From Morchella semilibera (lineage: Eukaryota; Ascomycota; Pezizomycetes; Pezizales; Morchellaceae): DNA of 64,000 nucleotides. The stretch is taken from contig WBVU01000004.1 in the NCBI GenBank assembly GCA_009192285.1, positions 2,626,001-2,690,000 of the forward strand, written 5' to 3'. Made by a program: the position numbers and the translations under genes. Shown piece by piece: positions 17,493 through 38,733 of the stretch (its first letter is position 1; each line of letters opens with the position of its first letter). The notes beneath the pieces are model-generated. The model did not search any database. It was not told the DNA's origin and saw only the letters and a list, made by a program, of their open reading frames with translations.

Positions 17493-18289
17493 CATCAGCA
17501 AGATTCAAACTCTCTCTAGAGGCCTGACTGCGTCTCTAGAGGCCGTTGCCAACACAACTATCCTCCTGTCTCTTCTAATAACTTCACTAACTATTTGTTA
17601 CCTCCCGAGCCTCCCGATGGCGTCTCGAGCCTTCTAGAGGGCCTCCTGAGTCTTCTGTTACCCTTCTTACCTCTCCTGACATCTCGCTAATTGTATGTAG
17701 CCTCCTGAGCTTTCTAGAGGGCCTCCTGAGCCTTCTGTTACCCTCCTTACCTCTCCTGACACCTCGCTGATTGTTTTCCGCCTTCCGAGCCTTCCAGAGG
17801 GCTTCTTGAGCTTTCCAGAGGCCTTCCGAGCTTTGATTGGTAAGTTTCAGAGGCCACCACCAACAACCTATTTTCACGCAAAAAACTTATACAGCTCTTG
17901 ATGGCTACCCCGCCGCTTCCGGGATCTTCTGGCCCTTTGCGCCTTTGTAAAGGATTCTGAAGCCCTAATGAGTTCCTGATCTAAATCATATTGTTTCGTT
18001 TATTATCATGTTAATTTTGTTCCAAATACATTCTATGCCAGCTGAAGTCACCCAGCCTTTACGAAGGCCTCTTGTACCTTTCTCCAGGCCACCAGAGACA
18101 TCGTCACTATTTATCAAACTCATTCCACGTTCTCAAATCTATTCTCGTGTTCACAAGCCATTGACCCTGTCCCAGCTCGAACAAATGAGTCATTCCCAAA
18201 ACACTACTGATATTAATTACCCAAAACCTTTGCCGAGAGCGCCTCGCAACTCTAAGAAGACCATGTGAGCCGTCTGGAAGACTCCTATC
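17493..18289 (-). mobile_element. Outer (older) Plavaka element, left part
   Basis: Begins with CATCAGCAAGATTC and runs into the 3' end of a Plavaka transposase (18107-18289). It is separated from the rest of its gene (35468 onward) by insertion of the inner Plavaka element. Between 17500 and 17860 the sequence is dense in GAGCCTTC/CCTCCTGAGC/TCTAGAGG motifs, interpreted as subterminal repeats. Whether the outer element really starts here or at 9916 is open. Confidence 0.65.
18107..18289 (-). pseudogene. Outer Plavaka transposase, C-terminal fragment
   Basis: Encodes the last ~60 residues of a Plavaka transposase (SLPDGSHGLLRVARRS, FWVINISSVLGMTHLFE, WLVNTRIDLRTWNEF). It is clearly homologous to the inner transposase C-terminus but distinct in sequence. 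Reading across the inner element (from 35468 to 18289, one copy of the duplication removed) gives ETKDRSLPDGSHGLL against EAKDLGIPDSSHGLL in the intact protein. This proves it is the continuation of the fragments at 35.5-38.6 kb. Confidence 0.88.
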
Positions 18290-18329
18290 CATCAGCAAGC
18301 TTGCAGTTGTCTCTGGGCGCATAACCCTC

Positions 18330-18650
18330 CGCCCTGGCGCATCCCTGCACCCTCAGCGCCAGGAGCGCCCTGGCGCATCCCTGCACCCTCAGCGCCAGGA
18401 GCGCCCTGGCGCAAACTTTGTGGTTACCCTACGCCAGGTGCCACCCTGGGAATCACTCTGCGCCAGGCGTTATCCCGTGAATTATTCTGCGCCAGGCGCC
18501 ATTTTCTGGGTTATTCTGCGCCAGGCGCCATCCTCTGAATTATTCTGCGCCAGGCGTCATGTTCTGGGATATTCTGCGCCAGGCGCCATCCTCTGAATTA
18601 TTCTGCGCCAGGCGCCCTCTTCTTTTTCTCCATTCACGCCAGGAGATTTC
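18330..18650. repeat. GCGCCAGG-rich minisatellite, left subterminal array
   Basis: Begins with two units of about 42 bp (CCCTGGCGCATCCCTGCACC type), then at least five units of about 35 bp of the form TTATTCTGCGCCAGGCGCC followed by a variable A/T-rich spacer. Each core GCGCCAGGCGC is a palindrome. A related array lies at the other end of the element (35150-35440). Candidate transposase-binding subterminal repeats. Confidence 0.8.
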
Positions 18651-18744
18651 CCGTGTCTCATACGGCACCTGGCGTTCCGGGAGATTTGGCGATAGCTCCT
18701 TTCACTATCGCGAGTCCCTACGAAGTTATAGGTAGCCTATATAT

Positions 18745-21700
18745 CTAACTAAATTCATTCCATGTCCGCAGATCTATTCTAGTATTCACAAGCCAGTTTC
18801 CCCTGTCTATCTCAAATAAATGTGCCATCCCTAAAATACACCGTATATTCACTACCAAAATTTGGTTACTACTTTTTCTAGAGGCTTTAAGAAGACCATG
18901 AGAGCTATCGGGAATCCCTAGGTCCTTGGCCTCCAAGAGTTCGATCGCGCATAGCCGGTGCGCCCGTCCCCTATTATCTCGTAGCTTAAATAAAGCCTCC
19001 AGGCGTCCTGGTAGCCTTCCCTCGAATGCTCCCCATTGATCTCGAGTCCCCACCGTTACCCATGTCCAATCTCTCCTCGGTGATCCTTTTCTAAATGCTG
19101 CATTTCCCGTGCAGCGCAGGTTATGAATTTCGTACGCATCTGGTCTTTGAAAAATTGGAACTGGAACCTGGAGGCAGGTAAATCGTTCAACTCGGAGCTC
19201 GCCAAGGTTCTCAAGGCTTCCGCCAAAGCTCTCTGAACACCCCGCATCCTCCGCATATTCTCTTATCATGCGATAAAATCTTATTCTACTCATCTTGAGT
19301 TCATCTGCAATATCGCATAGGCTTTCTAGCCTGGTAGAGCGGTTGTAAAGCCTTTTTAAGGGCAACTCGGAGTCGATTATAGGCCGTTCATTCGGTGCTC
19401 TCTTGCGGTCTTCTATCTTAAAAATATCAAGTAATTCCCGCAAGTTCTCATGATGCTCCCATAGGCTCTCGTTGCGGTTCTTAGAAGATCCGTCAGCTTC
19501 CACGATATCCTTGAGGTTCAGTATCCGTATTTCTAGTGCCAATCGTCTTCCGCCGTAATCAAGAATTTGGGTCGCCGCATCAATTTTGTTTGAAGCGGCG
19601 TATGCTTCTTTGATTTGGTGTACGTGGGCCAGTTCGCTGATATCCGTAGAGAACATAGGAATATTCCCGAATCGCTCCACATGCTCTCGGTAATGTGATA
19701 ATTGATGCAATTTGATGAAGTTGAAATGAGATTTCTCGCGGATCTCGCGGACCTCTTCTAAGCCACGGTCAATCCTCTGAGAGCCCTCTTGCCGGAGAGC
19801 CCGTGTTCGATTCTTTGCATCTTTCTTAGTTTGCTTGTAGGCTCGAAATTCTAAAAGGATATCCTTATACCTATGGAAGTCCTTGAGATAACCCTCCAAA
19901 TATTCAAGTATACTCTTGGTATGATTCCCGTATTGAGCCATCAGGTGAAAGTCAATCAGTGCCCAAACGCATTTCAAAGCCTTTCCGAAGTCAGCTCTGA
20001 CAGAGCTCCCTGGATTTCTCAGAGCCACCGCCAAAGCTCCCAGAACTATACGCCCTAGGTTTCGCATCTCTTTCCCCTGCCATTGCGTGGTTGCCCTATA
20101 AGGCTTGTTCGGTACTGCAAGCCGAGGATAAGGCCCAATCTTTGACCATGCTATATCGAACGCGTCGAGACGCCCGTGTTTCTTGAGAAATCCTTGAACC
20201 CATTCCATCATATGCTTTAACATTCCGAGGTAGATGTTGTGCAATAGATCCGGTTTGTTCAAGTCGTACACCTTGCATCTCGTGATATCCCATAAAGCAT
20301 TGAAGAGAGTCTTCAAAGACCTTGATACAAGGTATTCTACTGGTGATGTATTCGGCGGGTTCTCATTAAACTGCCGTACCATCTCCTGGTAGGTCTCTTG
20401 ATCACGCATAGAGCTCTGCCGATAGCTTCCAAAGTTCTTATACTCCACCTTACATCTTAGGCAGGCGAAATTGCTGATGTTTTGCAACGAGACGTGCTCA
20501 GGTTGGTCCGCGATCCACCCACACAGTACAGGAAAACATAGCCGTTCATATCCATCCGCGCAGGATATCAACTCGCCCTCCTCGCCACTACTTTTCAGGC
20601 TTTTGAAGATATCTTTGAGAGCGTTGTGCAGAGCCATCTGCGATTCCCGACGCAAAGTTGCATTCGCACTCGTATTTGAACTGAGCTTAGGGGGCACTGG
20701 TAATAGCGCTAGGAGTACTAACGAGTGCCCAGAGACTTTCATTCTCACAGAGGAATTGATATTCCCAATTGTGAGATAGATTGGCCATGCCTTTTTATCA
20801 CCACTAAAGTTCGTCAGGTGAGTGCCATCCGAGGCACAGATTACTGGAACTAACGTTGAACCCTCAGGGAGAGAATTCTTTTTGAGATCAGTCATGACAT
20901 TTCTGACTCTAACGAAACCTCCTAAAGATCTCGGAAAGCTTCTCCTCACCTGTGTTTCCCACCACCAGTCCCCTGTATGCATTTCACTGTAAATTCTCTC
21001 TCCCTTCTCGTTGTACTCCATTGACGGTGCAAATATAAGAGACTCCTTGAATGCCCGTTGTCCAAGGAGGAATCGAATAATTGTCATAGGGTCGCGATAG
21101 TAGTATGGTATGTTTTTCCCTCCTATAACAACCTCCGCATGGTTCCATGTTGACCTCCCTAGGCAATCGTTCATTTCCTCCATTTTTCGTATAAAACCTC
21201 GCCCATTTCTATAGGAGCTATGGCGATGGTCTCCGGGGGCATGTAGAAAGAAGCTATCGATACTTCCTTGTGATTCTTTGGACAAAATAAAGTACCGCAC
21301 CATCCGGAATTCATACGATGAGTTGAAAGGTTGCCACGGATTGCCGAGAAGCCGTTGTGCGCTTTCCTGATAGCCCTCAGAGCGATATAGAGCCTCCCCA
21401 GCACCTTCGTAGACCGTGGTGGATGCATCACGAGTAACTCCCAACTCCTCTTCACAATCCTCCCTATCGTCTACAAAGTAAGACTCTGATTCTAGGTCTG
21501 AATCTCCAGCAGCTTGTTGAGAGAAGTCAGAATATGTAGATGACCCGTCCTCGCAACTAGCATCATCCAGATCAGAGCCATCTGAAACCTTGTGAGACTC
21601 CTGTAATGGTTTGTGATTCTCCTGCAAAAGATCGCATTGATTTGTGAACCATCCATCCGCTTCGTTAGGGTGATTATTCCGTAGGTGTTTCTCAAAGTTC

Positions 21701-21747
21701 GCTGAGGAGCTGTATCGCTTGCTGCAAAAAGGACAGTAGGACTTCAT
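18745..21747 (-). CDS. Plavaka-family transposase (intact)
   Basis: Single uninterrupted 1000-residue frame. Residues 5-26 form a C2H2 zinc finger (C5, C8, H21, H26). An acidic linker follows, then the Plavaka N-terminal block (NPWQPFNSSYEFRMV, about 136-150) and YYYRDPM and FLLGQRAF (about 215-233). The catalytic core is YSEMHTGDWWWETQ and VPVICASDGTHLTNFSGDKK-AWPIYLTIGNI (about 300-330), where D307 in ASDGTH is the likely first catalytic acid. KDILLEFRAYK and other conserved blocks follow. These are hallmarks of the fungal Plavaka transposases, often annotated only as zinc-finger proteins. The uninterrupted frame suggests recent activity. It is divergently transcribed from the second gene, with a 0.78-kb shared upstream region that contains a GCGATAGCT motif. 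Confidence 0.92.
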   Translation of the reverse strand: MKSYCPFCSKRYSSSANFEKHLRNNHPNEADGWFTNQCDLLQENHKPLQESHKVSDGSDLDDASCEDGSSTYSDFSQQAAGDSDLESESYFVDDREDCEEELGVTRDASTTVYEGAGEALYRSEGYQESAQRLLGNPWQPFNSSYEFRMVRYFILSKESQGSIDSFFLHAPGDHRHSSYRNGRGFIRKMEEMNDCLGRSTWNHAEVVIGGKNIPYYYRDPMTIIRFLLGQRAFKESLIFAPSMEYNEKGERIYSEMHTGDWWWETQVRRSFPRSLGGFVRVRNVMTDLKKNSLPEGSTLVPVICASDGTHLTNFSGDKKAWPIYLTIGNINSSVRMKVSGHSLVLLALLPVPPKLSSNTSANATLRRESQMALHNALKDIFKSLKSSGEEGELISCADGYERLCFPVLCGWIADQPEHVSLQNISNFACLRCKVEYKNFGSYRQSSMRDQETYQEMVRQFNENPPNTSPVEYLVSRSLKTLFNALWDITRCKVYDLNKPDLLHNIYLGMLKHMMEWVQGFLKKHGRLDAFDIAWSKIGPYPRLAVPNKPYRATTQWQGKEMRNLGRIVLGALAVALRNPGSSVRADFGKALKCVWALIDFHLMAQYGNHTKSILEYLEGYLKDFHRYKDILLEFRAYKQTKKDAKNRTRALRQEGSQRIDRGLEEVREIREKSHFNFIKLHQLSHYREHVERFGNIPMFSTDISELAHVHQIKEAYAASNKIDAATQILDYGGRRLALEIRILNLKDIVEADGSSKNRNESLWEHHENLRELLDIFKIEDRKRAPNERPIIDSELPLKRLYNRSTRLESLCDIADELKMSRIRFYRMIREYAEDAGCSESFGGSLENLGELRVERFTCLQVPVPIFQRPDAYEIHNLRCTGNAAFRKGSPRRDWTWVTVGTRDQWGAFEGRLPGRLEALFKLRDNRGRAHRLCAIELLEAKDLGIPDSSHGLLKASRKSSNQILVVNIRCILGMAHLFEIDRGNWLVNTRIDLRTWNEFS

Positions 21748-24533
21748 TAGGTGTCGCGATAGCTCTCATGGCTCTCGGAGGTGTCAAAATTACTACTGCC
21801 AAGCCTGTGGATTACTAATACTTGTGAGGGTGTATTGGAGGGCACACAACCTCTTGCCAAACAAACTTTCTAGCAACGTCATATATTCACGTTGAAAACT
21901 AACCAACATATGCTTTCAGATCAAACTCAACATCTATCGCACATATCGGCCAAACCTTCTAGGGATTCACCACTACTCCAAAAGGTTTCATGAGTACCCT
22001 CGAAATTGTGGCTCAAAATCGTGGGCAATGCCGAGAAATCCCTATCTTTTGATACCCAAATGACTACATCTGTACTTGAAAACAAGATCAGAACAGCTAA
22101 CGATTCGAAGAAAAGCCATCATGCCAACACCAAAACGGACTCGAATACCAACACTCATACTAATCTACGTCATTTAGTAACTTGCCCAAAACCGTCGAAA
22201 CACACCCGAGCAATCAATGATTCTGGCTCTGTGCGTTCTGGCGAAGACTGTGGAAGCTTTCGAAAGATCCTCTCATAGCTCTTAATGACTAATTTGATTT
22301 CATGTGAGTGTTGGAAGAAGAGGTATAAGAACCTCTTCTTCCACCCTTGGGAGACCTTTCTTCACCATCCCCATTACTCTTCACAACCTCGCCAGGCATT
22401 GAGCTGGTGCGTTCTACCTATATTACGTTAATCATTCTTGTTCGTCCAGCCTTTTCAATTTCATTTCAACTTGATATCATCCACTTCGACACTTTCAACT
22501 TGATACCTCCCCAGAATTTCCAGTTGAAAGATGCCTCCCAACGCTACTAAGAGTACCCCTGGAAAGGTAGTATATAAACACCACATGGTTGTTCCCTAAT
22601 CACTATACATTAGTTTCTAACATACCTCCAGTCCGGTGGCAAGTCGAAAGGCCTCTCCCATCGTACTCACGATACCTTACAAAGCACTGCCAAAAGCCCT
22701 AGAGTAGAGATCCCAACCCTCCGAAAGCGTCAGCGCCAACCAGTCCCTGAATCTGAAGACGATATTGCCACAAGACCCCGTCATTCGAACCCACAAGTTC
22801 TTGATAGCCCTCCCCAAAGCTCTCCAAGATTGTTCGCAACCCCCCGAAAACGTGGGTGCCAACCAGTTCTTGATTCCGAAGACGAGATTGCCACACGACC
22901 CCATCGCTCGAACCTGCAGGCTCCTGATAGTCCTGACATCACTCCCGGAAGCCCTGAAAGATCTCGACCAACCCCTCGAAAGCGTCTGCACCAGCCTATC
23001 TCCGAAGCTGAAGAGGAAGAGTTGACTATCCTCTCACATAGAGTAGGAATTCCCTGGAGTTATGACGGTCCACCACCAGACCTCACCCTTAAACAGGCGC
23101 TGACACCCACGAAGACTGCTCCCGCGCCGCCCAAGGCTTCGCAAGCACCCAAGGCCCCCCCAGTTTGGAAGAAGGCAACAGCAGCAGCAGATATCGCATT
23201 AGCTAAAGCTTATCCAAGCACTCCAGAGACTATCTCATCTCCCAAAGCCCCAGAAACAACTTCCAGAACCACAGCAAAAACTTCCAAAACCACAGCAAAA
23301 ACTTCCAAAATCACCCCAGCATCAGCAACAAGGACTGCTGTCGCAGGCCCAAGCACTCCAAAAGTCACCTCCAAAGCTCCAAGAGCAACAGCAACAGCAC
23401 CAAACGCCCGACAAGATCTGCGGTCTGGGTCATCCTCTACTACTAATTCCCAGCCTGCTAGTACACCCCGAGAGCCATCCACAAAGCTCCCAGAGCTATC
23501 GCGATATTCAAGAGCGCACATCAAAACGAAGATAGAGACAAGCACAATCATCCTGAGGACGGAGACAACAACGAAGACGAAGACGAGCACGAAGACGAGG
23601 ACGGTGACGGAGACGACGAAGACGAACCTCGCCACGCTTCACAAGGACGTCGTCAGAGACAGAAAAAAAAAAAGGCTTTCAAGGCAAGGTGGTCAAAGGA
23701 GGTTGTTTTGATGGACGCAAGCACTGCCAAGGTGACTTTGAGATTGGCCGCCTCCCCAAAGGGTTACAACAGATTGAGGAAAGACCTCGCCGCAGAGATC
23801 ACAAGAACAAGATGGGTCAATAAAAGAACTAGTGGGCTTACTCATTTTAATGAGTTGGTGCCATGGCTTTTTGAACAGAGGCCTCTGGTAGGTTTGGTCA
23901 CGATCATGGGAGGCCAGAGGAATAACGCCAGGGCCAAGATACAGGAAGCACTTACCTGGCTAGTGGTCGATGTCAGTCGGAAGGAAAAGGTCTCTGAGGG
24001 CTTGGGGAATCGGGAATTCACCGAGATTGACGTTCACGACCCCGAGCTGGACGCTGACGATTCGGATGATCTGCTGCAAGGGCTCTCAGGGCACTCGGCA
24101 AAGCGCCAAAAGCTATCGCCACAATCTGAGCGGACTAATATCTGGGTCACCGTTGTCGACCCTGACCGTTTTAATGAATACGATCCTGATGCTAGGAGAC
24201 GGGAATACACTTGGACCATGCACATAATGAGCCTAGTTACGCTGCCGTGATGACTTGGAGGAATATCCAAGAGCTTGGAAGAGTCGCCTGCAAGCATATC
24301 CCCATTGGTCGGTTGGTCCGGGAATTCTATGGCTCGATGAACCAACCAGCCGAACCGGAAGAGGAGCCAGCCTGGGTTCGCATAATAGACACTGAGGAGG
24401 TAGAAGCCTGGATGCTCGGAAGTCTGGCGAAACCTCTTCGTGTTCTGGCCATACTTCACAGAGTAGGCCAGACTGAACCCCATAGTGGTGATGAAACCCC
24501 TCCTAGAAGACTATACCAGCCATACACCACTAG

Positions 24534-25299
24534 TGTCCCGGCGTCTTGGCATCTGTCCCGACAGTTCGGTGGGCAGTGCACGGTTGTGGTTGTTGGGGAA
24601 ATGTTAAGCGAGAGCAGGGAATGCGAGGTGGAGGGTGTCGTCATAGGTTTCTAGGAGATTCGATGGCGTGATGGATTGGTAATGTAAATAGCGGAGATGG
24701 TGGGGAGGATTACGAGGTGTGGTAGCGACGGGTTTCTATGGGATTCTGTGGATGATGATATGTAGTCTTGGCGGACTAGTGGAGGAGGTATGTTAAATAG
24801 CGGGGATAGATGTTTTTCTTAGTTCTTTCTTTCTTTTCTCTTCGTCTCGTCTTCCTGTTATGTCGGTACATAGGAATCTACTCCTATTTCTAAAGCCATA
24901 GTCTCTCGTACCAAAGACTCGATCCTCTGACAAGAGGAAACTCATAGTATCCCTCATCGTTCTCGTTGAGGTCCCTTCGGTCCTCACTTTCTCTGCTCTG
25001 TGCTCTTGTGCCCTTGTCCTTGCCCTTGCCTTTGTCTTCGCCGGTGCCTGTGCTTGTGCCTGCCTGGCGTTGTCCCTGTCTTCATCGGCCCCCTCGTCGA
25101 GTACACTGTGCTCCTCGAGTCCTTCTGCGTTATCATTGTCATCTTCTTTTTTGCGTCGGGTTACTCCGTCACACTGTGCTCGTGCCTGCCCGGCGCTGTC
25201 CCTGTCTTCATCGGCCCCCTCGTCGAGTACACTGTGCTCCTCGAGTCCCTCTACGTCATCATTGTCATCTTCTTCTTTGCGTCTGGTTACTCCGTCACA
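24534..25299 (+). repeat. Gypsy-B 5' LTR with internal duplication
   Basis: 766 bp compared with 632 bp for the 3' LTR. The extra length is a tandem copy of the last ~134 bp (GTGCCTGCC...TCCGTCACAC). Because both LTRs are made from one template at insertion, the duplication most likely arose later. Confidence 0.88.
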
Positions 25300-28200
25300 C
25301 TAAGACGAGACCATCCTCACTCGACTAGCACAGTCTGAGTTCCTCGCACCACAGTTTACCATGACCGCCCCTGCTACCAATGCATTTGATTATCAAAAGC
25401 TCCATACGGATCTCGAAGGGTTCTTTGTCGCTCACCCTGAAGTGGACCCCGCCGCAACGGAAAAGGCGAAGCAAGCGTATGCCCTCCTTCAAAGAGCGCA
25501 CGGAGGGGTCCAGCAATATGCGGTCGACATTACCACCCATCACTCCGAAACCGAACAAGGCCGGGCCGAGTTCCACAAAGAAATCCAGGGACTACGGGCT
25601 AAGATCAAAAAGCTGCAAGAAGGAGTCAAAGGAGGTTTAGAGGAGCTCCACGACGACTTAACCAAGCCATCCAAATCCGAGAAGCTACCCGACCTGGAGA
25701 AATACCGGGGCGATCGCAAGACTCTCAGGACCTTCCAGAGACAACTCCAGATTAAGCTCACGGCTAATTTGGATCGTTTTCCTACTGCGGCTCAACAACT
25801 TGCGTATTCTATTTCTCGATTGGAAGGACCGGCGGCGGATCAATTTTTAGTTTATATTACAGATGAAGGGATCGCTCTCGATTCCATGGCGGAGTTTTTT
25901 GAAATTTTGGATAATGCTTTTGGGGATCCGGACCGCGCTGCCACTGCTGCTCGAAATCTGAGGGAAATCAGGCAGCGCCAACGCACCTTTTCTGAGTACT
26001 TTGCAGAGTTTCAGCGATATGCTGCCGACTCTGAGTTCAACGAAGCGGCTAAGATTGAATCTTTGTTGGAAGGACTTAACCGGGACCTAATGGCCCTGAT
26101 GATTCAGAACGAAACACCAACTACAATTAAGGACTGCGGGCTGCTTCTTCAACGTCTTGATAATAAGCAACGGGCGCTACAGGCCAGGATGGGGAGATTT
26201 CGTTTTCAGATTCCAAGTGCTCCTGCTCCGCGTCCCTTTGCTCCTCGTCCCCCCGTTGCACCAGCAACATCCCCAGTCGTACGAGGACCACCCCAACCAC
26301 CATCGAAGAATGCTGCGCCAGCGGCCCACCCTTCCTATACTCCTGGGGGAGCTGTTCCCATGGACTTGTCTAATAGCTATCGTCGCCCGGATCCCCGAGA
26401 AAGGGAGGCACGTCGTGTGGAGAATCGTTGCTATTACTGCGGGGGGGTTGGACATTTGGTTAGAGATTGTAAGCTTTCGCCCTCGGGAAGGGCAGCACCC
26501 AGGATGAGGGGAGCATTGCTGAAAGAAAGAAAGGAAAAGGAAGAGGAGGTATTGTCGGATGAGGAGGAGTTAAAAGATTCGTCCCTGGCCTAGGCGGCAT
26601 AGCCCAGGGACCTCCAAAGGTTTTCTCTCAGGTGTCTATTTCAACGTTTTCAGTATCAGAAGGGGAGATGGATGGGAACCAACTGATTGTAGTGTGTTCT
26701 ATTTCACAAAATAAAAAATCTATTGTACCCACTTATGCCTTGATTGATACTGGAGCGTCGGGATATGCATTCATTGATGAAGACTTTGTGCGCCGCCATG
26801 AATTAAAAATGAAAAATTTACGGACTGAGAGGGAGATTGATGTGATTGATGGAAGGCCTATCGAGTCTGGGAAGGTGACCAGGAAGGTGACGTTGGAATT
26901 GGAAATTAATGGACATGTGGAGGAGTGTCCTTTCTTTGTTACAAAGTTGGGACATTACCCGATTGTGATGGGAATACCTTGGTTGAGGAAGCATGGAGTT
27001 TTGATTGATAGTGGAAGGAATGAGATTCGCTTCCAGTCATCAGTATGTCTTGAACATTGCATAGCCAACCACAAACCTATTGTTGCTCGGGGAATTTCAA
27101 CTTCACCACCCGAAAGGCCTGTTACAAATATTTCGGCAATTACCCCTCGATCGTTTAAGAAACTTTCGCAAGACCCTACTGTGCAAATTTATTCGACTAC
27201 CCTCTATGCTATCAATAAAGTATTGGAAATGCCCGCCAACCCTGATGGGACAATTCCAATTGATTATCAGCGGTTCCGACAGCTGTTCGATGAGACCAAT
27301 GCTTCTAGACTACCACCACATCGGTCCTATGACAATGAGATCAAACTTCAGGAAGGAACAGTACCACCCTTTGGTCCCATGTATAGTATGTCACGGGAAG
27401 AGTTGAAGGCGTTGAGAGATTATTTGGCCGATAATTTGCAGAAAGGATTCCTTAGATCTAGTAATTCTCCAGCCGGCGCCCCGGTGCTATTTGTTAAAAA
27501 GGCTGATGGCTCCTTACGCTTGTGTGTTGATTATCGAAAGCTAAATGCTATTACGGTTAAGGATCGATACCCTCTTCCCCTTACACCAGAGACGATGGCC
27601 AACTTAGCCCGCGCTAATTATTTTACCAAGCTGGACCTACGATGGGGATATAATCAGATTAGGATTAAAGAAGGGGACGAGTGGAAAACGGCTTTTCGAA
27701 CACGCTATGGACATTGGGAATATTTGGTGATGCCTTTTGGTCTAACTAACGCTCCTGCTACCTTTCAACGTTGGATTAACGATATTCTTCGCCCCTTTTT
27801 GGATCGTTGCGCTACTGCTTATCTGGATGATATTCTTATTTATTCGGAGACCTTGGAACAACACCAACAGGATGTGCGACAAGTATTGGAGGCCTTGGAA
27901 GCTAATGAGGTCCATCTAAAACCAGAGAAGTGCGAATTCAGCGTACAAGAGACAAAATATTTGGGCATGATCTTGACCCCTGGAGGAATGAAGATGGATT
28001 CTGCTAAGGTACAGACAATCGTGGACTGGGAAGCGCCAAAGACCGTGAAGGAGGTTCAGGAATTTCTTGGGTTTGCCAATTTTTATCGACGCTTTATCTA
28101 TGCCTACTCCCGAGTGGCTCGGCCATTGACTGCTCTGACAAAAAAACATGTACGATTCGAGTGGACCCAAAAAGTTGAACAAGCCTTTCACAGACTCAAG

Positions 28201-29183
28201 ACTGCTTTTACCACCGCGCCCATATTGATGCATCCTGATCCCGAGAAAGAATTTATTGTGGAAACCGATGCGTCAGATTATGTGTCGGCAGGGATATTAT
28301 CACAACGCGATGACGAAGGAATACTTCACCCAGTTGCCTTCTTTTCCAAGATACATTCGCCTGCGGAATGCAACTACGAGATTTATGACAAAGAGTTGCT
28401 GGCCATTATTCGTTGTTTTGAAGAATGGAGACCTCATCTGGAGACAGCTCAATTCCAAGTAAAAGTGCTCACAGATCATCGTAATCTGGAGTATTTTATG
28501 TCAACTAAATTGCTGAATCGGCGCCAAACTCGTTGGGCGGAATTCTTGTCTCGATTTAATTTTATTATTCAATATAGGCCTGGGAAGCAGGGAAGGAAGG
28601 TGGATATTCTGACTAGGAGGACTAAGGATTTACCGAAGGAAGGGGATGAAAGATTGGAGCAACAAAGTCGAATGGTATTGAAGAAGGAGAATTTAGATGC
28701 AAAGATAGGTTTGTTAGCGGGTTCTTTGTCAAATGAACCCGCTGAAGGAGCGTCTCCTGTACTTGATTTATTTAATATAGCTTACCAGTGCGATAGCTTT
28801 CCGAATAAAGTCTTGTCCATGCTTCGGGACGGTGTTCGACAATCGAAAGAGATTTCGTTAGGCGAGTGCAAGGAAAATGAGGAGGGGTTATTGCTTTATC
28901 GGAATACCTTTACGTCCCTGATTTTGATGAACTCAAACTCTATCTGTTACGAGAGTATCACGATAAACCCTCGGCCGGACATCCTGGACGATCGAAGACT
29001 CTGGAACTTCTCAGCCGGGAGTATTATTGGCCGACCATGCGGAAATATACAGACCGCTATGTTCAGAATTGTCATACCTGTCGACGAAGTAAGACGAACC
29101 ATAATCCTCTACAAGGAGTTCTGCGTCCCTTGTTGGTACCCAAAGGACCTTGGACAGATGTCACGATGGATTTTGTAACGGGA

Positions 29184-29748
29184 TATCACGGCGTACCTCG
29201 GACTTCGAGGAAGGAGAGGATATTGGAGAACAGGCTGTCGGGGATAAGGTTTTTGGGGTTCTTGGAGTTTCTATGGGTTTCCGTTACACGAGGTTATGAG
29301 TCATGATTGTACAGGGATTAGGAGGGGTATATATGTGTTGCTACGGATCTTTCCTTTGTCTTTTTCTTTCTCTTTCTTTCCTTACGTGTTCTTCCTGTTA
29401 TCAACTCTACGGTTTAGTTTCGTTCTCGTCTTGTGTCTTTAGTTCTAAATATACTACGTCATAACCATAGTCATCGCCAAGACCCTAAGGAGTCTTCCAT
29501 AGTATCTTGCCTCGCCTCGCCTCGCCTCACCTCGTCTCGTCTCGACCATAGTCTATGTCCGTAGTCCGTGTCGTCTACTGGTACCTTCGTCTCCACGTCT
29601 TCGTCAGAGAGGCCATCTGGACCCTCTGCCCTACAATCCTGCTCCTAGGTTAGGTTCTTGTCTCGTTGTCCCTCGTCTTCGTCCTCATCTCCGCCTCGGT
29701 TGTGTACCTCGGCTCTCTTGTTTGTTGTCTTCGTGTTGCTCCGTAACA
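29184..29748 (+). repeat. Solo LTR (TATCACGG family) inside Gypsy B
   Basis: About 565 bp starting TATCACGGCGT and ending GCTCCGTAACA, inserted in the pol region of Gypsy B. It contains pyrimidine-rich and TATATATG promoter-like sequence and a CCTCG pentamer run at 29511-29545. It begins like the solo LTR at 37578. The deepest nested insertion in the window. Confidence 0.75.
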
Positions 29749-30817
29749 CGGACTTCCGGAAAGTCGTGGGTTTAATGCCATTCTAGTAGTGGTGGATCGG
29801 TTGACAAAGATGAAGCATTTGATTCCCACGATGGAGAATGTTAACGCCAGGGATCTGTCTCGTCTATACCTGGAGCAGGTATGGAAGTTACATGGGTTGC
29901 CCGAGACTATTGTTTCCGACCGAGGGACACAGTTTACCGCTGAATTTTGGAAAGTTCTCTGCGAACGGCTGGAGATTGCTCCTCGTTATTCCACAGCATT
30001 TCATCCTCAAACCGATGGACAAACAGAAAGGACCAATGCGATTATGGAACAGTACCTCCGTACTTATGTATCATATCAACAAGATAACTGGGTGGATTTT
30101 TTACCTCTGGCTGAATTTGCTACCAATAATCACATCTCCGAAACTACTAATATGTCCCCCTTTCAGGCTAACTATGGGAGACATCCGAGGATGACATTCG
30201 GACCCTTACAGCACGGACAGACAGTGAATGCGGACCAGGCTAATGGGTTGGCACGAGAGATGTTTCAAGTGTTTGATTTTCTGAAAAGCGAGATGTTTAG
30301 GGCACAGAAGATACAGGAGGAAATGGCCAACTTACACCGCACCCCAGCATCTCGATATACAGTTGGCGATTCTGTCTGGCTTTCCACTAAGAATATCGAA
30401 ACCAAGCGACCGTCGAAGAAACTTGATTGGAAACAAATCGGTCCCTATTTGGTTAAACGAATCGTGAGTCCTTATGCCTGTGAATTGGAACTACCAGCCT
30501 CTATGAAGATACACCCGGTATTCCATGTTTCATTATTGTCGCCGACAGTTGGAGATCCGGTTCCTGGACAAATCGTTGAACCGCCTCCACCGGTGGAAGT
30601 TGAAGGAGAGACCGAATGGGAGGTAGCGGAAATATTGGATTCGCGGAAGAGGGGGCGACGGGTGGAGTACTTGGTTAGATATGCTGGATATGAAGAACCG
30701 TCCTGGCAACCTTCGAGCGATTTAAAGCATAGTCCTGATATTAGAAAAATATTTCACAACCAATATCCTTCGAAACCTCGGCCTATCAGGAGCTAGGCCC
30801 TTGGAGGGGACCTGATC

Positions 30818-31449
30818 TGTCCCGGCGTCTTGGCATCTGCCCCGACAGTTCGGTGGGTAGTGTACGGTTGTGGTTGTTGGGGAAATGTTAAGCGAGAGCG
30901 GGGAATGCGAGGTGGAGGGTGTTGTCATAGGTTTCTAGGAGGTTCGATGGCGTGATGGATTGGTAATGTAAATAGCGGAGATGGTGGGGAGGATTACGAG
31001 GTGTGGTAGCGACGGGTTTCTATGGGATTCTGTGGATGATGATATGTAGTCTTGGCGGACGGGTGGAGGAGGTATGTTAAATAGCGGGGATAGATGTTTT
31101 CCTTAGTTCTTTCTTTCTTTTCTCTCTGTCTCGTCTTCCTGTTCTTTCGGTACATAGGAATCTACTCCTATTTCTAAGCCATAGCCTCGCGTACCCAAGA
31201 CTCGGTCCTCTGCCAAGAGGAAACTCATAGTATCCCTCATCGTTCTCGTTGAGGTCCCTTCGGTCCTCACTTCCCCTGCTTTGTGCTCTTGTGCCCTTGC
31301 TCTTGCCTTTGTCTCCGCTGGTGCCTGTGCTCGTGCCTGCCCGGCGCTGTCCCTGTCTTCATCGGCCCCTCGTCGAGTACACTGTGCTCCTCGAGTCCCT
31401 CTGCGTCATCATTGTCATCTTCTTCTTTGCGTCTGGTTACTCCATCACA
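30818..31449 (+). repeat. Gypsy-B 3' LTR
   Basis: 632 bp, TGTCCCGG...ATCACA, preceded by the GGAGGGGACC purine tract and followed by the ACTAG duplication. Confidence 0.92.
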
Positions 31450-32444
31450 ACTAGTGACGATTATGGACACTTTGATTATCTGGCTGAAGACTCTGAGTTT
31501 AAGGGCGGAGTTAGATTGACCTCCATTGGAACCAGGCTTATCATGCCGAAGAGTGATGCGTCGTTCCAGGTAAACCTCCACAAGATCTCGTCACGCCGGA
31601 ATAGGCAGCAATCAGCCCTTGAGCTCCTCAATCAGAAGTACCTTAATAAGTACCCTGTGGGTGTTGGTATTGCGGACCCTAACTTCAGAATCGGGCGTGT
31701 CTGGGGGGCTGCGGAGATCGCTCAGAAGCATGAGGAGGACAGAGCCAAAAGCCCGCGGCACCGCGCAACGGGAAAGCTGAAGACTCCCTTGGTTCCCCTC
31801 CCCGGAGGTAGTGGTGATGGTGATGGTTATAGTGTTTAGGCCTATTTGGCGAGAGTTTGGACAGGTTTTGCGAGATTCTAGTGAGTTATTCGCATTTAGC
31901 ATGATTAATCTATTAACTGACCCACAGATTTTTTTCTCCCACTATTTTTGTTAGGGTATACAGAGATTTCGAAAGGTTTGGCGATAGCTTTAAGAGCTCT
32001 CAACATGGTCGGTAACAGCTTTGTGTTCGGTATTATTTGTTGTTTCCTTGGTCCGCGCATATTAACACGTAGCATTTTAGGTGATTACTATTATTAGAGA
32101 GTGTTGATTTGAGGCTTGGTATTATTAGAGAGCGTTGATTTATTCTTAGGTTGGGAGTATTTATTTGATACTGATAGGTAGCGAATATCAAAGTGATTTG
32201 AAGCCCGAATGCTACTAGTGATCTTGAAAGCTATCGCGAAGGCTCCTGAAAACATCATTATTGCGAGTGATTACCGATGAGGCTATTTTAACCCAAATTG
32301 GTGTGCCCAGCCCATCTAATTAGCCAATTTTGTCTGTATGTGGTTAGCTTTAGATTACATGAAAATTTTCACGCCAAGCACTTCTTTTGATTAGAAATCA
32401 GGACAGCCTTCAAAACCCTCAGGAGAGCCCTCACAGGCATCAAG

Positions 32445-34967
32445 ATGCCTCAAGCAAAGCGTCCCTCAACGTCGGAAACGACCAAATCCACTCCAAGCCT
32501 CCCTGACCCTGAAGACCACAATGGGGAAACTACAGAGCAAGATTCGAACGAGGGTGAGGCTGTACCCGAGAAAGCTTCCAACACTCTCACGAGAGTCAGC
32601 ACAACCACGAAGAAAGCTCAAGGAAAGCGGCTGCCCCAAAGGAGTACTTCTTCTCGTAAACGCTTTAGGCCCCCAAATGAAATCTCATCGGATGAGGACC
32701 TACCTGACCCCCCAGAGCGCCGCTCGACCAAAGCCTCGACCAAAGCCCAGGGAATCCCCAAATCATCTCTTAAAGGCCATTCTCGACAGAACAAAAAATC
32801 TAGAAAATCCGGTGTTCGAGTAGAGTTTAACCTCGAAAGATACCACCCGTCCGAGGGAGAGCAAGAGGTTCAAGAGCGCCTTACAACCAGTTCTTCAGAA
32901 TATGATGATGACCTAGACACTGCAGTACTACGCGAACAAAGCGTGAGGCATCAGTTCGCAGACAAAAGACCCCCGGGTACGCAGGTCGGAGATAAGAGAC
33001 CCCCGGGTACGCAAGTGGCCGGAAAGAGACCTCCGAGTAGCCAGGTAACGACTGCCAGAGGTGTGGCGAGTGCTCGGAGAAAGCCCACCGGTGCGGTTGC
33101 TGAGGCAATTGCGTCGTCAGAAGTGGAGATTAACGTTATTCAAGTAATTAACCCCAGTCTTTTTTTTTGATAAGTGACTGAGATGAAAGAAATTTTAGAA
33201 GGGAAATCGTACATCGTCGAAGCCAACGAAAAATCCATCAAGCGCTCCACAAAGACCGCCGATGACTCCTGTGGACCCAGTGATGGCTCCTATTGCTACC
33301 CATTACTCTTCATCTTTTCGTATCCCCCCCCCTTCCTCTTCTAGGTTAGGAGAATCGTCACCAACACCAATGGCATTGAATCCTGGATTCATGCCACCAA
33401 GCGATAATAGCTCCTGGGGCGGTTCTCTGAGCTTTGGGATTAGCTCTCTAATGCCTCGAACAATGGAGCCATCCCCACTAGGGAGACCACCTCAGAATAA
33501 CGATACAGCGAACCCTAACTATCTGTCGCCTTCACCTTCTTTACCTCCGCCTCATGATGACGACAGGTATTCTTACCAAATTCATCAGCAAGACTTCATT
33601 TGTCTCCTGATGTCTCCTGAGCCTCATGAGACTCAAAAAATATCCAGGAGTCTCAGGAGACTCTCATGAGACTTGGGAGACTGTTGGGAGACTCCAGTCA
33701 CAGGTTGAGTTTGCTGATGTTCCTGAAAGCTCTCATCAAGCCTCTGCTGGTCAGATACCTCGTACACCTGCTCCAAACTCTAGGAGTGCGAGTGTGCTTC
33801 CTTTGGAAGCTCAAAGGATTGAGAAAAAGTGTAGTATATTGATAGGTGATCACACACTGTTTGAAGAGCCTTTTCCAAGCCCTGCGAGACTCTCGGTATT
33901 GGTGGTGAATATGTGGGTACAAGCAAGTTGTAGTTTGGGAATCAGCGCAGAAATCGACGAGGTTATTATAAAACAGGTGAGTGTCCCCGAAGATCCCATG
34001 ATAGCTTCTAGGGAACTGAGGAGGCCCCACAGGTTAGAAGCTTGCACTCCCGAGTGCGGTCACACTTGATGAGCGCAGTGAAGGAACGGCTAGCAGACTC
34101 CAGGATTTACGGAATTGCAAAAATTCGCACACAAGTGGAGAGGGCTGAAAGAGTCGACTATCTTTTGAGGAATGATCGGTTCATCAGCCATCCAGCGCAT
34201 TATGAGGTATATCTAAATTCTTGGGAACCACGACGATAGCTCTAACAAGCCTTAGGCATGCAGCTGCAAATTCTTAGCTCCGGAGATCATCGAGGTTTTA
34301 TATTATAGGTTTTTTGATGGGGCTAGGAGGCGAGGAGCCCGTGAACCAGATTTCCTCGACCGAATAAACCATACATTGATATGCCTGATAGCAACCGCTA
34401 TTTGGCATGGGATTCGCGCATGGTCCACGGGAATTATGTGATACCGCAAAATTTCCAGACTCAAAATGATAGTGTAGTGAGTAAGTATTTCTCATAGCTC
34501 CTGGAGGTATGGCGGGTTCTAACCAAGGTGTTACGAATGCTCTAGAAACCTTCACAAGGATGGTAAACACTTGGAGGTCACGTAGTCGTTCCAACCAGGA
34601 AGGAATCTTGAAATTGATAAAGGACAATCTTCGAGACAAAGTAAGAGCCCGATCTTAATTACCGACTATAATAACCCAAACTGATAATTTGTAGATACAA
34701 GAGAAGAAGGGGGTTACGGTCGAGGATATTCCGGTTGAGGGTCTTAGCGAGGACGATGATGCTCTGGCGGAAGCTCTGGAAGCTCTCAGGAGTGCTCGGG
34801 GAGATCAAGGCCAGAAATCTAAACCCGGCCAAACTAACCTTCCACCACACGGGCTTGAATATGGTACGGATGGAGAGCCGGACCTAATGGAAAAAGAGGA
34901 GGAGATAGAGGAAATAGTGGAGGAGGAGGGTGGAGAAATAACAGAAGATGAGAGCTATAATAACTAA
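32445..34967 (+). pseudogene. Accessory gene 3 of inner Plavaka element (DUF6532-like), split by a MITE
   Basis: Starts MPQAKRPSTSETTKST. The N-terminal half is basic and Ser/Pro-rich, with a DKRPPGTQV repeat three times. After an intron ending near 33200 (ATTTTAG) it continues as KGNRTSSKPTKN. It runs in frame to the MITE at 33583 and resumes in frame at 33720 (IPESSHQASAG). Then RLSVLVVNMWVQAS and introns from 33978 and from 34207. The HTLICLIATAIWHGIRAWSTG block resembles the conserved WSTG region of fungal DUF6532 proteins. Two more introns and an acidic tail (EKEEEIEEIVEEEGG) end the protein at 34967. Apart from the MITE the gene may be whole. Function unknown; as cargo of a CACTA-like element it could assist transposition or be domesticated host sequence (inference). 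Confidence 0.62.
33583..33719 (+). mobile_element. 137-bp MITE, copy 2
   Basis: CATCAGCAAGACTTCATTTG...GTTTGCTGATG with target duplication TT (33581-33582, 33720-33721). Inserted in an exon of accessory gene 3; removing it with one TT restores the reading frame. Confidence 0.93.
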
Positions 34968-35149
34968 GGGAATAACAAGATCTCTAAGAGGTATGGAGAA
35001 GTCTGTAGAGACAGTAATATGTATTATTATAATTGTTATATAGTGGCGAGACCATAAGTGAATATATCCGTACCATTCGAGGAATAGAAGAGATCTCTGA
35101 AAGCTATCGTGAAGTGAATAAATACATGAAAAGTACCAGGTAGCACCAG

Positions 35150-35440
35150 GAGCTAGATGTGCGCGCCAGGGACACCCAGGCGCGATGAATGATAAAAAGT
35201 ATGTTACCAGGGGAGATAGGGGCGGAAAGGTAAAGCACAGGCGGAGCCAGGCGCAAAACATTGCCGCCAGGGGCGTTCCTGGGAGAAAGCCTAACTCCTG
35301 GCGCTAACCGATGTTGTGATATGGTTCAGGGCGCTCAGGGCACTGAAAGCCCTGCCCGGAGCGCCCTGAGGTTTGGCGAGGTTCTCAGGAGAATGAGTTT
35401 TTATCCCGTGCGCCCTCAGCGCCCTGAACGCCTGGAGCGC
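35150..35440. repeat. GCGCC-rich right subterminal array
   Basis: Irregular copies of GCGCCAGG/CCTGGCGC and GCGCCCTGA, partly inverted relative to each other. It ends about 30 bp from the right terminus of the inner Plavaka element. It mirrors the 18330-18650 array and supports both belonging to one element. Confidence 0.7.
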
Positions 35441-37577
35441 CCCATGAAATCTACAGGTTTGCTGATGTCCTTGGTTTCCAGTAACTCTACAAGACAAAGC
35501 TGATATATTTTCGTCGATATACTGTCACGTATCTTGAATATTGCTCATACAAGCCCTGATAGGCGTCCCTGAAAGGCTCCCCACAGCTCCGTTGTGGTCA
35601 CCTTAATCCATGTCCAATTATTTCGAGTCGACTTTTTCCTAAATAATGCCTCTCCCATACACCGTATATTGTATATCTCGTAACTGTCAGGCTTCTGGAC
35701 AATTGATACTGGCACCTGTAGGCACTTAAAGCACTCCACCGAGCACTCCAGAAGGCTCAATAAGCCTTGTTCTCCCCGGCTCAGACCCTGACCATATTCC
35801 GACACCGCTCTTGCTAGTGTTGTTCTATTCATTTTAATTATATCGGCGATATCGGGTGGTATGTGGGGTCCACCGTCAGGGGTCATCGTTTTAGGTTTTG
35901 GGTGTTTATCATCGTTTAGGAATCTTTCGTTTGTCCTTTGTGGGTCCTCGTTTTTGAATACTTCCAAAATGCCCCGGAGGCTCTCTCGATGGCTTGGGAG
36001 GCCCTCATAATGTTTTGGAAGACTGACAACGATATCTTTCAGATTTAAGACCCGTATCTCTATAGCTATACGCCTTGAGTGGTAACCGAGAATCTGAACT
36101 GTTGCGTCGACTTTATTGGAGGCTGCATAAGCTATCTCCATTTGTTGCCTATAAGCTAACTCACATAGGTTGAAAACATTGGGATATTACCAAATCTCTC
36201 TACATGCCCCCGGAAGTGTGAAACAAGATGCATTTTAATGAAGTTGAAATGAGAAGCCTTGCAAATTTCCTCAAGCTCTGCCAGGCCTCTGTCAATGCTT
36301 CCCGAACCTTGCAGCGCCTTTGTTCGATTTTTTGCCTCTTTCCTTGTTCGTTTATCGGCTCTAAATTCCAGAAACACATCTTTATGCTTGTGAAAATCCT
36401 CGAGATACCCTTGAAGATAGTCTAGTGTTTCTTTTATATGTGTAGTGTACTGTGCCATCAAATGGAAATCGATTAGTGACTGAACACACCTCAAGGATCT
36501 CCCGAAGTTGCTCTGCAAAGCTTTTGGGGGGTTCTAAAGAGCCACTGCAAAGGCTCCTAAAACTATCTGGCCGAGATGACACATTTCTTTACCTTGCCAT
36601 TGGGTAGTTGCCCGATAAGCCTTATTTGGTACAGCAAGCCTTGGGTAAGGCTTAATGGACGCCCAAGCCCGATCAAAATTCTCTAGCCGATTGTGTTTTT
36701 TCAAAAACAATTGAATTCATTCCATCATATATTTCAATAGGCCGAGATAAATATTATGTAATATATCTGGCTTGTGAAGATCATACACCTGATCCTTTGA
36801 CAAGGCCCACAAAGTATTGTATAGAGTTTTGAAGGATTTCGACACCAGGTATTCAATGGGTGCTGTATGTGACGTATCCTACTTATAACGCTCTACCATT
36901 TTAATATATCGCTCCTGAATGTGAGGCGGATTTTCTTGAAGGCTCTCCAAGCCCTTGAAATCAACTTCTCACCTAGGGCAGGCCTGATTGTTGAGGTTTA
37001 GCAGCGAGGCGTATTCTGGTTGATCCGCAATCATCCATGCACATGGTATCAGATAACATAGGCGCATATAGCCATCAGCGCATGTTATAATCTCACCCTT
37101 TTCCGCAGGGCCCTGAAGACCTTCGAGAACCTCAGAAAGAATCTGATGAAGGACCATCTGGCTCTTCCAACGGTATTCGTTTGTACGCACTCCAACCTTT
37201 GGTGGCACTGGCAGTAGAGTTAGGAGTGTGATCGCGTAATTAGAGGGTTTATTTCGCGTGTCCGAGGTGATATTGTCAATCGTTAGGTATACTGGCCAAG
37301 CCTTCTTGTCACTACTGAAATTAGTAAGGTGTATTCCGTTTGATGCACATATTACTGGCACTACCGTTGATGCTTCTAGAAGGGTATTCTAGAATATTTG
37401 TGAGGGGTTAGCAGAGGCTTCCTGAGCCTTCTAAGTAAGTCTTGCGAACTTGCATCTCCCACCACCAGTCTGCCGTGTGCATCTCCCCATACATCCGCTC
37501 CCCCATTTCATTGTATTCCATAGTAGGTGAATACACCGAGGACTCTCTAAATGCACGTTGTCCCAGAAGAAAACACA

Positions 37578-38023
37578 TATCACGGCGTGGAACATGGTCT
37601 AGTGGTGTTGCGGGAAGAGGGATTAGTCAGGGATTCTCTAGGATTCTTTGGGTTTCGGAAGCAGGGGTTTGGTTCGGTAATAGGGGTTCGGGATTAGGAG
37701 ATAAGGTTGGGATCGGGGTTACGGGTCTTGGGAGATTCTATGGGGTTCTGTACAGGGTTACGTGGATGAGTCATCGTGTCGGTATGTGGTGTATATATAG
37801 GGGCCTCGTTCTCGCTTGTAGATAGTTCTTTTCTTTCCTCTTCACGCAACCTTCCTATCTTCAGGAGTTTGTAGTCCTTCGAAATATACTCAGGTCTCTG
37901 GTTCTACCTCGCGTCCCGCTTCGCCCCATAGTCTCGCCTCGCCTACCTCGAACATTACTGTTACGTCCCGCCTAGGTAGTGTACCTTGGCCCTCCGCCCA
38001 GTCTTCCGCCTCGCTCCGTGATA
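37578..38023 (+). repeat. Solo LTR (TATCACGG family) in outer Plavaka
   Basis: 446 bp from TATCACGGCGT to CTCCGTGATA, flanked by ACACA (37573-37577, 38024-38028). Removing it restores the transposase reading NIVCFLLGQRAF. Both ends form the inverted repeat TATCACGG/CCGTGATA. A TATATATAGG promoter-like box lies near the middle. Confidence 0.85.
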
Positions 38024-38093
38024 ACACACTATATTCATAGGGTCCCTGTAGTAGTAAGGAATTTTCTGCCCGCCCATTTCGACCTCTGAGTGT

Positions 38094-38230
38094 CATCAGC
38101 AAACTCAACTTGTGCCTGCAGTCTCCCAATAGTCTCCCAAGTCTCCTGAGAGTCTCCTGAAACCCATGAATATTTTTTCAGTCTCCTGAGGCTCAGGAGA
38201 CATTAGGAGACAAATGAAGTCTTGCTGATG
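38094..38230 (-). mobile_element. 137-bp MITE, copy 3
   Basis: Reverse orientation (CATCAGCAAACTCAACTTG...). Target duplication GT (38092-38093, 38231-38232). Inserted in the outer transposase coding region; the flanks join as WIHSEVEMGG, aligning with WNHAEVVIGG of the intact protein. Confidence 0.92.
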
Positions 38231-38733
38231 GTATCCAGTTCTTTTTTTCTAACCTCTCCATAGACGACATCTCGTCGAGGAGGCGTGCGAAGCCTCTACC
38301 AGTGCTGTAGGAGCCTTGTAGAGGGCGTACAGTGCGGAATAAAATTGTCTATTTGACCCTGAGATACATTCGATTGTAGGAACCAGTGCAATAACTGAAA
38401 TTCCTCTGCTGATTCGAAAGGCTGCCATGGGTTAATCAAAAGGCTTTTCGAGCCTTCATCATATCGCGTTGTGGTGAAAAGAGGCTCCCCTGCACCCTCG
38501 TATATGGTAGTTGCTAGATTGAACCGCGTAGATTCCAAAGTATGATCATCATTCGATTCAGTATCGGACTCGCTTTCGTCTGGTATGTTCAAACGTCCAC
38601 CCTCGTTGGGACCTCCTGAGTCTTTGGGAAGGCTCCGCAAGCCCTCAATGGGAGTCCCTGAAAATCACCTGTCATACCACTTGCGGGTCCGTGATGGGTG
38701 GACTTTTGAGAGAAGTCGATCGAAACGACCAGC

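Follow-up and report, generated by a model that had tools for sequence, protein, structure and literature searches.

A PlavakaB DNA transposon with two accessory genes nested inside another Plavaka element's transposase gene in Morchella semilibera

The En/Spm (CACTA) transposons of plants have a related transposase, carry subterminal repeats and encode several proteins per element. DUF6532 is, to our knowledge, a fungal domain whose function has so far been unknown, and in the literature that we searched a single paper names it, within a domain list. The available text of Kojima (2025, PMC12730594) reports Plavaka families from Agaricomycotina, some of which carry TET/JBP genes, and gives the hallmarks of PlavakaB as CATCA..TGATG ends and a target-site duplication of 2 or 3 bp. 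The transposases of the CMCT group are characterized there by a DDE triad with a C(2)C and an H(3-4)H motif between the second D and the E, and for Pezizomycotina section 3.3 of that work reports only TET-bearing Helitron and IS3EU. The Plavaka elements of Marasmius oreades are defined by pfam18759 in the accessible part of a further study, in which their TIR motifs are characterized (PMC8290104).

Here, we analyze a window of 64,000 nucleotides from the ascomycete Morchella semilibera (assembly GCA_009192285.1, contig WBVU01000004.1, positions 2,626,001 to 2,690,000 of the forward strand). We conclude with high confidence that a cut-and-paste PlavakaB DNA transposon in this window interrupts the gene for the transposase of another element, which comes from a second Plavaka family.

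Boundaries and content of the nested insertion

The inner element carries CATCAGCAA at both termini (18290-18298 on the plus strand and 35459-35467 on the minus strand). The window contains this 9-mer 23 times, against 0.55 expected from shuffles, because it is rich in related elements. The flanks read ...TATC before the element and TCCTTGG... after it, and the TC is thus doubled. When the flanks are joined and one TC is removed, their translation aligns with the inner transposase over 299 residues at 51% identity without a gap at the junction, where ELLEAKDLGIPDSSHGLL of the joined flanks pairs with ELLETKDRSLPDGSHGLL of the inner transposase, and the outer reading frame continues across the junction. 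A stop lies approximately 25 residues before the junction in this alignment, and more stops are found upstream; thus, the outer transposase gene is a pseudogene. Fifteen other places of the outer family in the genome are uninterrupted at the target point and contain a single TC each (12 distinct sequences in 17 rows, two of the places being listed two times). The empty site predicted for the window insertion is CCTATCCTTGG. The count leaves aside the outer-family left-end loci L054 and L059, in which the target point is not covered. A preliminary description had placed a Plavaka element with exact boundaries and a 2-bp duplication in the transposase gene of another, with both flanks belonging to one gene, and the base-exact empty sites and the alignment across the junction bear this out.

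The full extent, previously estimated at about 10 kb without later insertions, amounts to 10,118 bp after subtraction of the Ty3 retrotransposon with its ACTAG repeat (24529-24533 and 31450-31454) and of the miniature inverted-repeat transposable element (MITE) with its TT repeat (Table 1). The subterminal repeats of the inner element are GC-rich, and CCTGGCGC is present 13 times in the two subterminal regions versus 0 times in the inner 9,268 bases. For the outer element, no right end was found in the window; the 20-bp right-end sequence of its family has a single occurrence there, at 9916 in a separate fragment on the opposite strand, and this was rejected as a candidate. Searches of the window for RNA families and tRNA found none.

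Table 1. Features of the nested Plavaka locus, in window coordinates
Feature	Position	Strand	Remark
Inner PlavakaB element	18290..35467	.	CATCAGCAA ends; 17,178 bp including two later insertions
TC target duplication, left copy	18288..18289	+	flank comparison
TC target duplication, right copy	35468..35469	+	flank comparison
Left subterminal region	18290..18739	+	850 bp when pooled with the right region
Right subterminal region	35068..35467	-	counted jointly with the left one
Inner Plavaka transposase	18745..21765	-	1006-aa open frame, first Met at residue 7
Gene 2, accessory family	22614..31839	+	three frames, split by Ty3 in the window copy
Ty3 retrotransposon with chromodomain, in gene 2	24534..31449	+	missing from copy D
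Gene 3, DUF6532 (PF20149) protein	32445..34967	+	split by the MITE and frame-shifted in the window copy
137-bp MITE, in gene 3	33583..33719	+	CATCAGCAA ends, TT duplication; missing from copy D
Outer Plavaka element, CATCAGCAAGATTC... left end and transposase gene portion encoding the C-terminus (gene on -)	17493..18289	.	
Outer element continued: remaining transposase gene, stops and later insertions	35468..39056	-	
Outer element continued, in pieces	42093..51002	+	42093-42591, 43560-44349, 50320-51002
Gene 2 relative in outer element	43660-44355	+	within 42093..51002, whose strand is given

The inner transposase matches PF18759 with an E-value of 1.9e-73 (248 bits; cut-off 26.3), and a C2H2 zinc finger near its N-terminus is weak and below the cut-off (E=0.004). 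Its motif residues are D313, D420, C435xxC438, H687xxxH691 and E711, the DDE triad being assigned by motif, and the catalytic D, D and E together with C(2)C and H(3)H are conserved in 22 to 24 members of an alignment of 24 proteins. Between inner sublineages, the transposase dN/dS is 0.27 (copy E versus D) and 0.23 (E versus C), and inside the sublineage of E it is higher (0.43 versus A and 0.51 versus B); judging from these ratios, the transposase is less constrained within that sublineage. By the PF18759 match, ends, duplication and motif, the inner element fits PlavakaB as delineated in the available text of PMC12730594.

Two accessory genes shared by two Plavaka families

The inner element had been described as a multi-gene element, and it indeed contains three genes. 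Of these, the two accessory ones (gene 2 and the gene encoding DUF6532) also have relatives in the outer Plavaka family. Gene 2, a single open frame of 785 residues in copy D, represents a conserved family without a confident known domain. The tri-helical PF24465 was set aside as an assignment, given that its match (E=4e-4, in two of five members) lies below its cut-off. With approximately 8,000 candidates scored in each search, no homologue was found at E<=1e-5 for the whole protein or at E<=1e-4 for residues 385-785, and a profile search for PDB relatives returned none (best E=0.44). Gene 3 matches PF20149 at 34268-34438, with its introns modelled by eye.

Of 51 DUF6532 matches across the genome, 39 have a Plavaka transposase match no more than 15 kb away, 31 of these 39 in divergent and eight in non-divergent orientation, and the other 12 have no listed transposase within that distance. 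In a shift test of this proximity, 36 of 46 are near, against a null mean of 1.0 and a maximum of 6. Both accessory genes are apparently under purifying selection, as indicated by dN/dS values between copies D and E of 0.34 for gene 2 and of 0.15, 0.03 and 0.10 for the DUF6532 exons.

The nesting itself is an ordinary event within a known superfamily; the interesting part of the locus is the shared accessory pair. What is the role of this pair? Linkage, selection and analogy suggest that its members are probably transposition helpers. We lean towards a broader reading, in which PlavakaB elements are machines composed of a transposase, gene 2 and DUF6532, DUF6532 would be needed for transposition or regulate it, and solitary DUF6532 genes would be remnants.

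Further copies and alternative explanations

The left end of the inner element has 20 exact copies in the genome (0 for the reversed control) and the right end has 11. Both ends are present in eight copies of 10,239 to 17,178 bp, the window copy included. The genome search proposed in the preliminary description thus yields seven other bounded copies, all with the same termini as the window copy, and in related copies the sequences flanking its insertion point belong to one gene. The 2-bp duplication is perfect in only four of the eight bounded inner copies and in 13 of 21 outer-family pairs, the other eight pairs lacking a perfect one. The 137-bp MITE is represented by 42 full or near-full-length rows of 91-100% identity, and the duplication is found in 13 of 15 MITEs of this length, or in 13 of 18 rows when three rows that differ in length are kept; shuffling the pairing gives a mean of 2.4 and at most 9 of 18. 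A 3-bp flank match is observed in 0 of 28 element pairs and 0 of 18 MITE-length rows.

Two of the four inner copies without a perfect duplication probably have a left flank that is an assembly (gap-fill) artefact, and the remaining two, copies A and B (both on C19), lack the duplication although their ends are intact. An 863-bp left flank common to copies C1, C3 and C11 was considered as the mark of a longer mobile unit and rejected; in C1 and C11 this flank breaks off precisely where a single N stands, which makes it more probable that gaps were filled from one copy. Outer-family copies of 152-326 bp were likewise rejected as MITEs. A single N lies inside each of these four, they are probably collapsed full elements, and all four have duplications in their flanks.

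Could the junctions themselves be an assembly artefact, with a repeat copy misplaced or gap-filled within the outer gene? The identical flank of C1 and C11 and the four N-containing short copies are in line with such errors, but no N interrupts the window sequence, the duplication of TC and the reading frame are both exact, and the flanks are 91.0% and 93.6% identical to the outer copy at C1:2151890, a similar divergence on both sides. Furthermore, the window transposase differs from all other matches listed, and an artefact at this site is highly improbable. We judge it very unlikely, too, that the TC repeat arose by chance and that the element arrived via recombination or repair. Copies A and B would be compatible with such a route, but the duplication frequencies in the MITEs of 137 bp, outer pairs and inner copies contrast with the approximately 1 in 16 expected, and the empty sites are exact to the base.

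An alternative of a different kind concerns genes 2 and 3, which might be anti-silencing or host-directed cargo in the manner of the TET/JBP genes found on other transposons of fungi. TET/JBP dioxygenases are present in some PlavakaB elements and are thought to counter silencing, according to the accessible part of PMC12730594. No activity is known for DUF6532, and searching its sequence against the PDB gave no relative at E<=1, which leaves room for such a function. However, the relatives of gene 2 and DUF6532 accompany transposases only approximately 60-62% identical to the inner one, which argues for core machinery more than for an optional load, and the Pfam scan of the accessory-gene frames found no enzyme domain above the cut-off. 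We therefore regard the cargo explanation as possible but doubtful, and prefer a role of the pair in transposition.

Proposed mechanism and comparison with known systems

We propose that the DDE transposase, perhaps aided by the zinc finger, would recognize the CATCAGCAA ends, cut both of them and join them to the target with a 2-bp stagger. The gene 2 and DUF6532 proteins would help, in the likeliest case either by attaching to the GC-rich subterminal repeats or through assembly or regulation of the complex of the two ends. TNPA of maize En/Spm (CACTA) provides the comparison for subterminal repeat binding and for the two-end complex. Afterwards, Ty3 entered gene 2 and the MITE gene 3; as a result, the transposase frame is the only one still open in the window copy.

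For an ascomycete Plavaka family, the analysis provides termini exact to the base together with empty sites and the set of genes carried. DUF6532 gains a testable role as an accessory gene that occurs in two Plavaka families here, usually in divergent orientation to the transposase gene. Should mushrooms show this linkage too, DUF6532 genes annotated in fungi ought to be interpreted as belonging to transposons. In addition, the 137-bp MITEs are a possible substrate for a transposition assay.

The inner element differs from En/Spm (CACTA) in that its ends begin with CATCAGCAA (CATCAG) rather than CACTA and its duplication is 2 bp rather than 3 bp; it has neither the CAC..GTG termini nor the 3-bp duplication by which EnSpm/CACTA elements are recognized. 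Zisupton (KDZ) elements generate an 8-bp duplication, in contrast to the two-base duplication with exact empty sites observed here. The pfam18759 definition is common to this element and to the Plavaka of Marasmius oreades, as presented in the available part of PMC8290104, but the host in that case is a basidiomycete. Relative to the TET-bearing PlavakaB elements in the accessible text of PMC12730594, with TET/JBP as the sole point of comparison, the accessory genes here are gene 2 and DUF6532, and no TET/JBP domain was detected when the main frames of copy D and of the window copy were scanned with Pfam, although short exons could escape such scans. The kind of ends is not new, given that the same text already gives it for Agaricomycotina families. 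With PlavakaB as outlined there, the Morchella element shares the transposase, the CATCA..TGATG ends, the 2-bp duplication and the D-D-C(2)C-H(3)H-E motif, and it differs from Kojima's Plavaka families in that their hosts are Agaricomycotina, whereas the host here is an ascomycete.

Junctions and age order of the nested element

The inner element, a PlavakaB-type Plavaka DNA transposon, carries CATCAGCAA read inwards from both termini, with a perfect inverted repeat of 9 bp, and lies between TATC on the left and TCCTTGG on the right, so that TC is doubled and the exact ends proposed in the preliminary description stand (Table). On the minus strand, the left flank encodes the C-terminal part of a second, outer-family Plavaka transposase, and the right flank encodes the portion that precedes it. 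When the flanks are joined minus one TC, the frame is continuous across the junction, and no gap opens there in its alignment with the inner transposase (51% identity over 299 residues; next piece, 60% over 415 residues). As related copies also read through, the flanks form one gene, as had been claimed. The outer gene is a pseudogene with one stop ~25 residues before the junction. In the genome searched (23 contigs, 56.8 Mb in total), in which the window spans C20:2626001-2690000, the uninterrupted outer-family target with a single TC was found at 15 places (DNA relatives of 89.7 to 93.4% identity; 17 rows, two places being seen twice, and 12 distinct sequences); the junction point lies outside the span of the outer-family left-end loci L054 and L059. 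Because these 15 places are uninterrupted, the nested insertion is exact to the base, and its earlier placement in the transposase gene of another Plavaka element is right and well supported.

The inner element was itself invaded by a Ty3 retrotransposon and a miniature inverted-repeat element (MITE). Copy D, another inner copy, lacks both and thus provides empty sites for both. Without these insertions the element is 10,118 bp, in line with the predicted size of about 10 kb. The nesting places the outer element first, the inner element next, and the Ty3 element and MITE last.

The neighbourhood contains further features. A Ty3 element 21 bp from the outer left end has LTRs of 99.8% identity with CTCTC on both sides and reads as a recent insertion. 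Beside the outer left end, part of a further outer-family right end lies in opposite orientation, with a diverged LTR within, and could mark an old rearrangement. A ~3-kb stretch within the outer element, with inverted CCCTTTGCG / CGCAAAGGG flanks and a 242-aa frame, is perhaps another DNA transposon. The host gene fragment encodes the ubiquitin elongating factor core (Ufd2; E=8.6e-83).

Features of the window and bounded copies of the inner element
Feature	Position	Duplication
Inner element (window copy)	18290-35467	TC
Inner copy on C2	C2:3031181	TA
Inner copy D	C20:2864861-2875537	TC
Inner copy on C3	C3:2050198	AT
Inner copies A and B	C19	no perfect 2-bp duplication
Inner copy on C1	C1:2878603	no perfect 2-bp duplication
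Inner copy on C11	C11:1537520	no perfect 2-bp duplication
Ty3 inside inner element	24534-31449	ACTAG
MITE (137 bp, CATCAGCAA ends) inside inner element	33583-33719	TT
Other 137-bp MITEs, CATCAGCAA ends	38094-38230, 43424-43560, 46715-46851, 51701-51837, 62915-63051	
DUF6532 match in gene 3	34268-34438	
Ty3 near outer left end	11249-17471	CTCTC
Outer-family right-end fragment	9916-11248	
Candidate DNA transposon	39057-42092	
242-aa frame	40704-41432 (-)	
Host gene fragment	1330-2022	

Target duplications and the assembly

The proposed search for further bounded copies yielded eight with both ends paired by position and strand, the window copy included (10,239, 10,250, 10,289, 10,677, 11,623, 11,789, 16,375 and 17,178 bp). 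The genome has 20 instances of the 24-bp left end and 11 of the right end, the latter in two variants; 12 left and 3 right ends are unpaired. The C1, C11 and C3 copies have in common an identical 863-bp left flank, which in C1 and C11 ends at a single N and is read there as an assembly error; perfect duplications number 4/8 with these two counted and 4/6 without them. In the outer family, a 2-bp duplication is present at 13 of 21 end pairs. Four of the 21 contain an internal N, and the pairs on C9 and C10, neither with a duplication, are probably a single place counted twice; the set stops short of the three pairs that span 22 to 28 kb.

The 137-bp MITEs, whose ends are those of the inner element, provide independent support for a 2-bp duplication. 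With both end hexamers required intact, a rule that excludes several copies in the window whose end is mutated, 13 of 15 show it (13/18 rows including three of other length), and a 3-bp match occurs in 0/18. The family is very uniform (42/46 rows full or near-full length, 91-100% identity) in a genome search that scored 40 of 963 first-look candidates and returned at least 46 rows.

Single N bases occur at L005:637, L102:864 and in L094-L097, and the identical 863-bp flanks terminate at two of them. Flanks ending in this way suggest false gap filling, and short outer-family copies containing a single N probably represent collapsed elements. Such sites are a warning for repeat counts in the Morchella semilibera assembly. 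The contig pairs C9/C10, C12/C13 and C21/C22 bear matches at almost equal coordinates, as if two nuclei or haplotypes had been partially assembled.

Accessory genes common to the two families

The inner element is multi-gene, as first described, and comprises a transposase, gene 2 and gene 3 (DUF6532, PF20149). In copy D, gene 2 is a 785-aa open frame on the strand opposite the transposase, and the intron-containing gene 3, which a 450-bp insertion and a stop disrupt in this copy, lies downstream of it. Exons of gene 3, joined by eye, match DUF6532 (E=3.1e-16; 60.3 bits versus a cut-off of 24). Of the three genes, only the transposase keeps an open frame in the window copy: Ty3 splits gene 2, whose sequence is also spread across three frames, and the MITE splits gene 3, which is frame-shifted and has a DUF6532 match of 31.9 bits. 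The outer family contains gene 2 relatives twice (28% and 32% identity) and a gene 3 relative (44% over 54 residues). In its reference copy at C1:2151890 (L030+L061), two gene 2 relatives stand in tandem.

Genome-wide, gene 2 has 110 matches, with 44 invariant columns among five diverse ones, and DUF6532 has 51, all above the cut-off; no DUF6532 was found in 14 control genomes. A match to the transposase domain PF18759 lies within 15 kb of 39/51 DUF6532 matches (31 divergent, 8 not) and of none of the other 12, counting 85 of 128 PF18759 rows. In a null of 2,000 rounds, which shifted the 46 DUF6532 matches on contigs of known length along those contigs, a mean of 1.0 and a maximum of 6 fell within 15 kb of PF18759, versus 36 observed, although these matches are copies of few families and thus non-independent. 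DUF6532 and PF18759 matches 5.5 kb apart on C17 may represent a further lineage.

Between inner sublineages, comparison of D, the reference, with E, A and B yields dN/dS (Nei-Gojobori) values of 0.29-0.34 in gene 2 and of 0.03-0.24 across three DUF6532 exons, and the transposase gives 0.27 (E versus D) and 0.23 (E versus C). Transposase values inside the E sublineage are higher (0.43 versus A, 0.51 versus B), as expected of decaying copies. Against the outer family, gene 2 and one DUF6532 exon are saturated. We take these ratios to indicate that all three proteins were probably under selection while the elements were active.

Nested transposons are common and the event itself is ordinary; the shared accessory pair is what raises the finding. 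The founding paper is Iyer 2014. The accessible passages of the literature searched (Plavaka, Morchella transposable elements, DUF6532/PF20149) describe no Plavaka element that carries DUF6532. The only paper found naming DUF6532 puts it and Plavaka into one list of domains seen in two Ganoderma species. DUF6532 as a general Plavaka component is directly testable in public fungal genomes.

Subterminal repeats and comparison with known elements

What might the accessory proteins do? CCTGGCGC occurs 13 times in the terminal 850 bp and 0 times in the inner 9,268 bp of the window element, and 10 versus 2 times in copy D; the commonest terminal words of the outer family differ and are also frequent inside, a weak contrast. 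The near-end repeats suggest binding by a transposon-encoded protein. The gene 2 or DUF6532 protein would be the putative binder, by analogy with TNPA of En/Spm.

The inner transposase is a stop-free 1006-aa frame with full-length, stop-free matches in two other genomic copies. It matches PF18759 (E=1.9e-73), and its best-matching named relatives are from Morchella importuna (65% identity) and M. sextelata (64%). Across 24 aligned proteins (from 87; named members ascomycete and basidiomycete), residues D313, D420, C435, C438, H687, H691 and E711 each recur in 22 to 24 sequences. In the text of Kojima (2025; PMC12730594), section 3.3 names Helitron and IS3EU as TET-bearing transposons of Pezizomycotina, and PlavakaB is assigned CATCA..TGATG termini and 2- or 3-bp duplications. 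The same text gives D-D-C(2)C-H(3)H-E as the signature of the CMCT group, and the inner transposase shares this signature.
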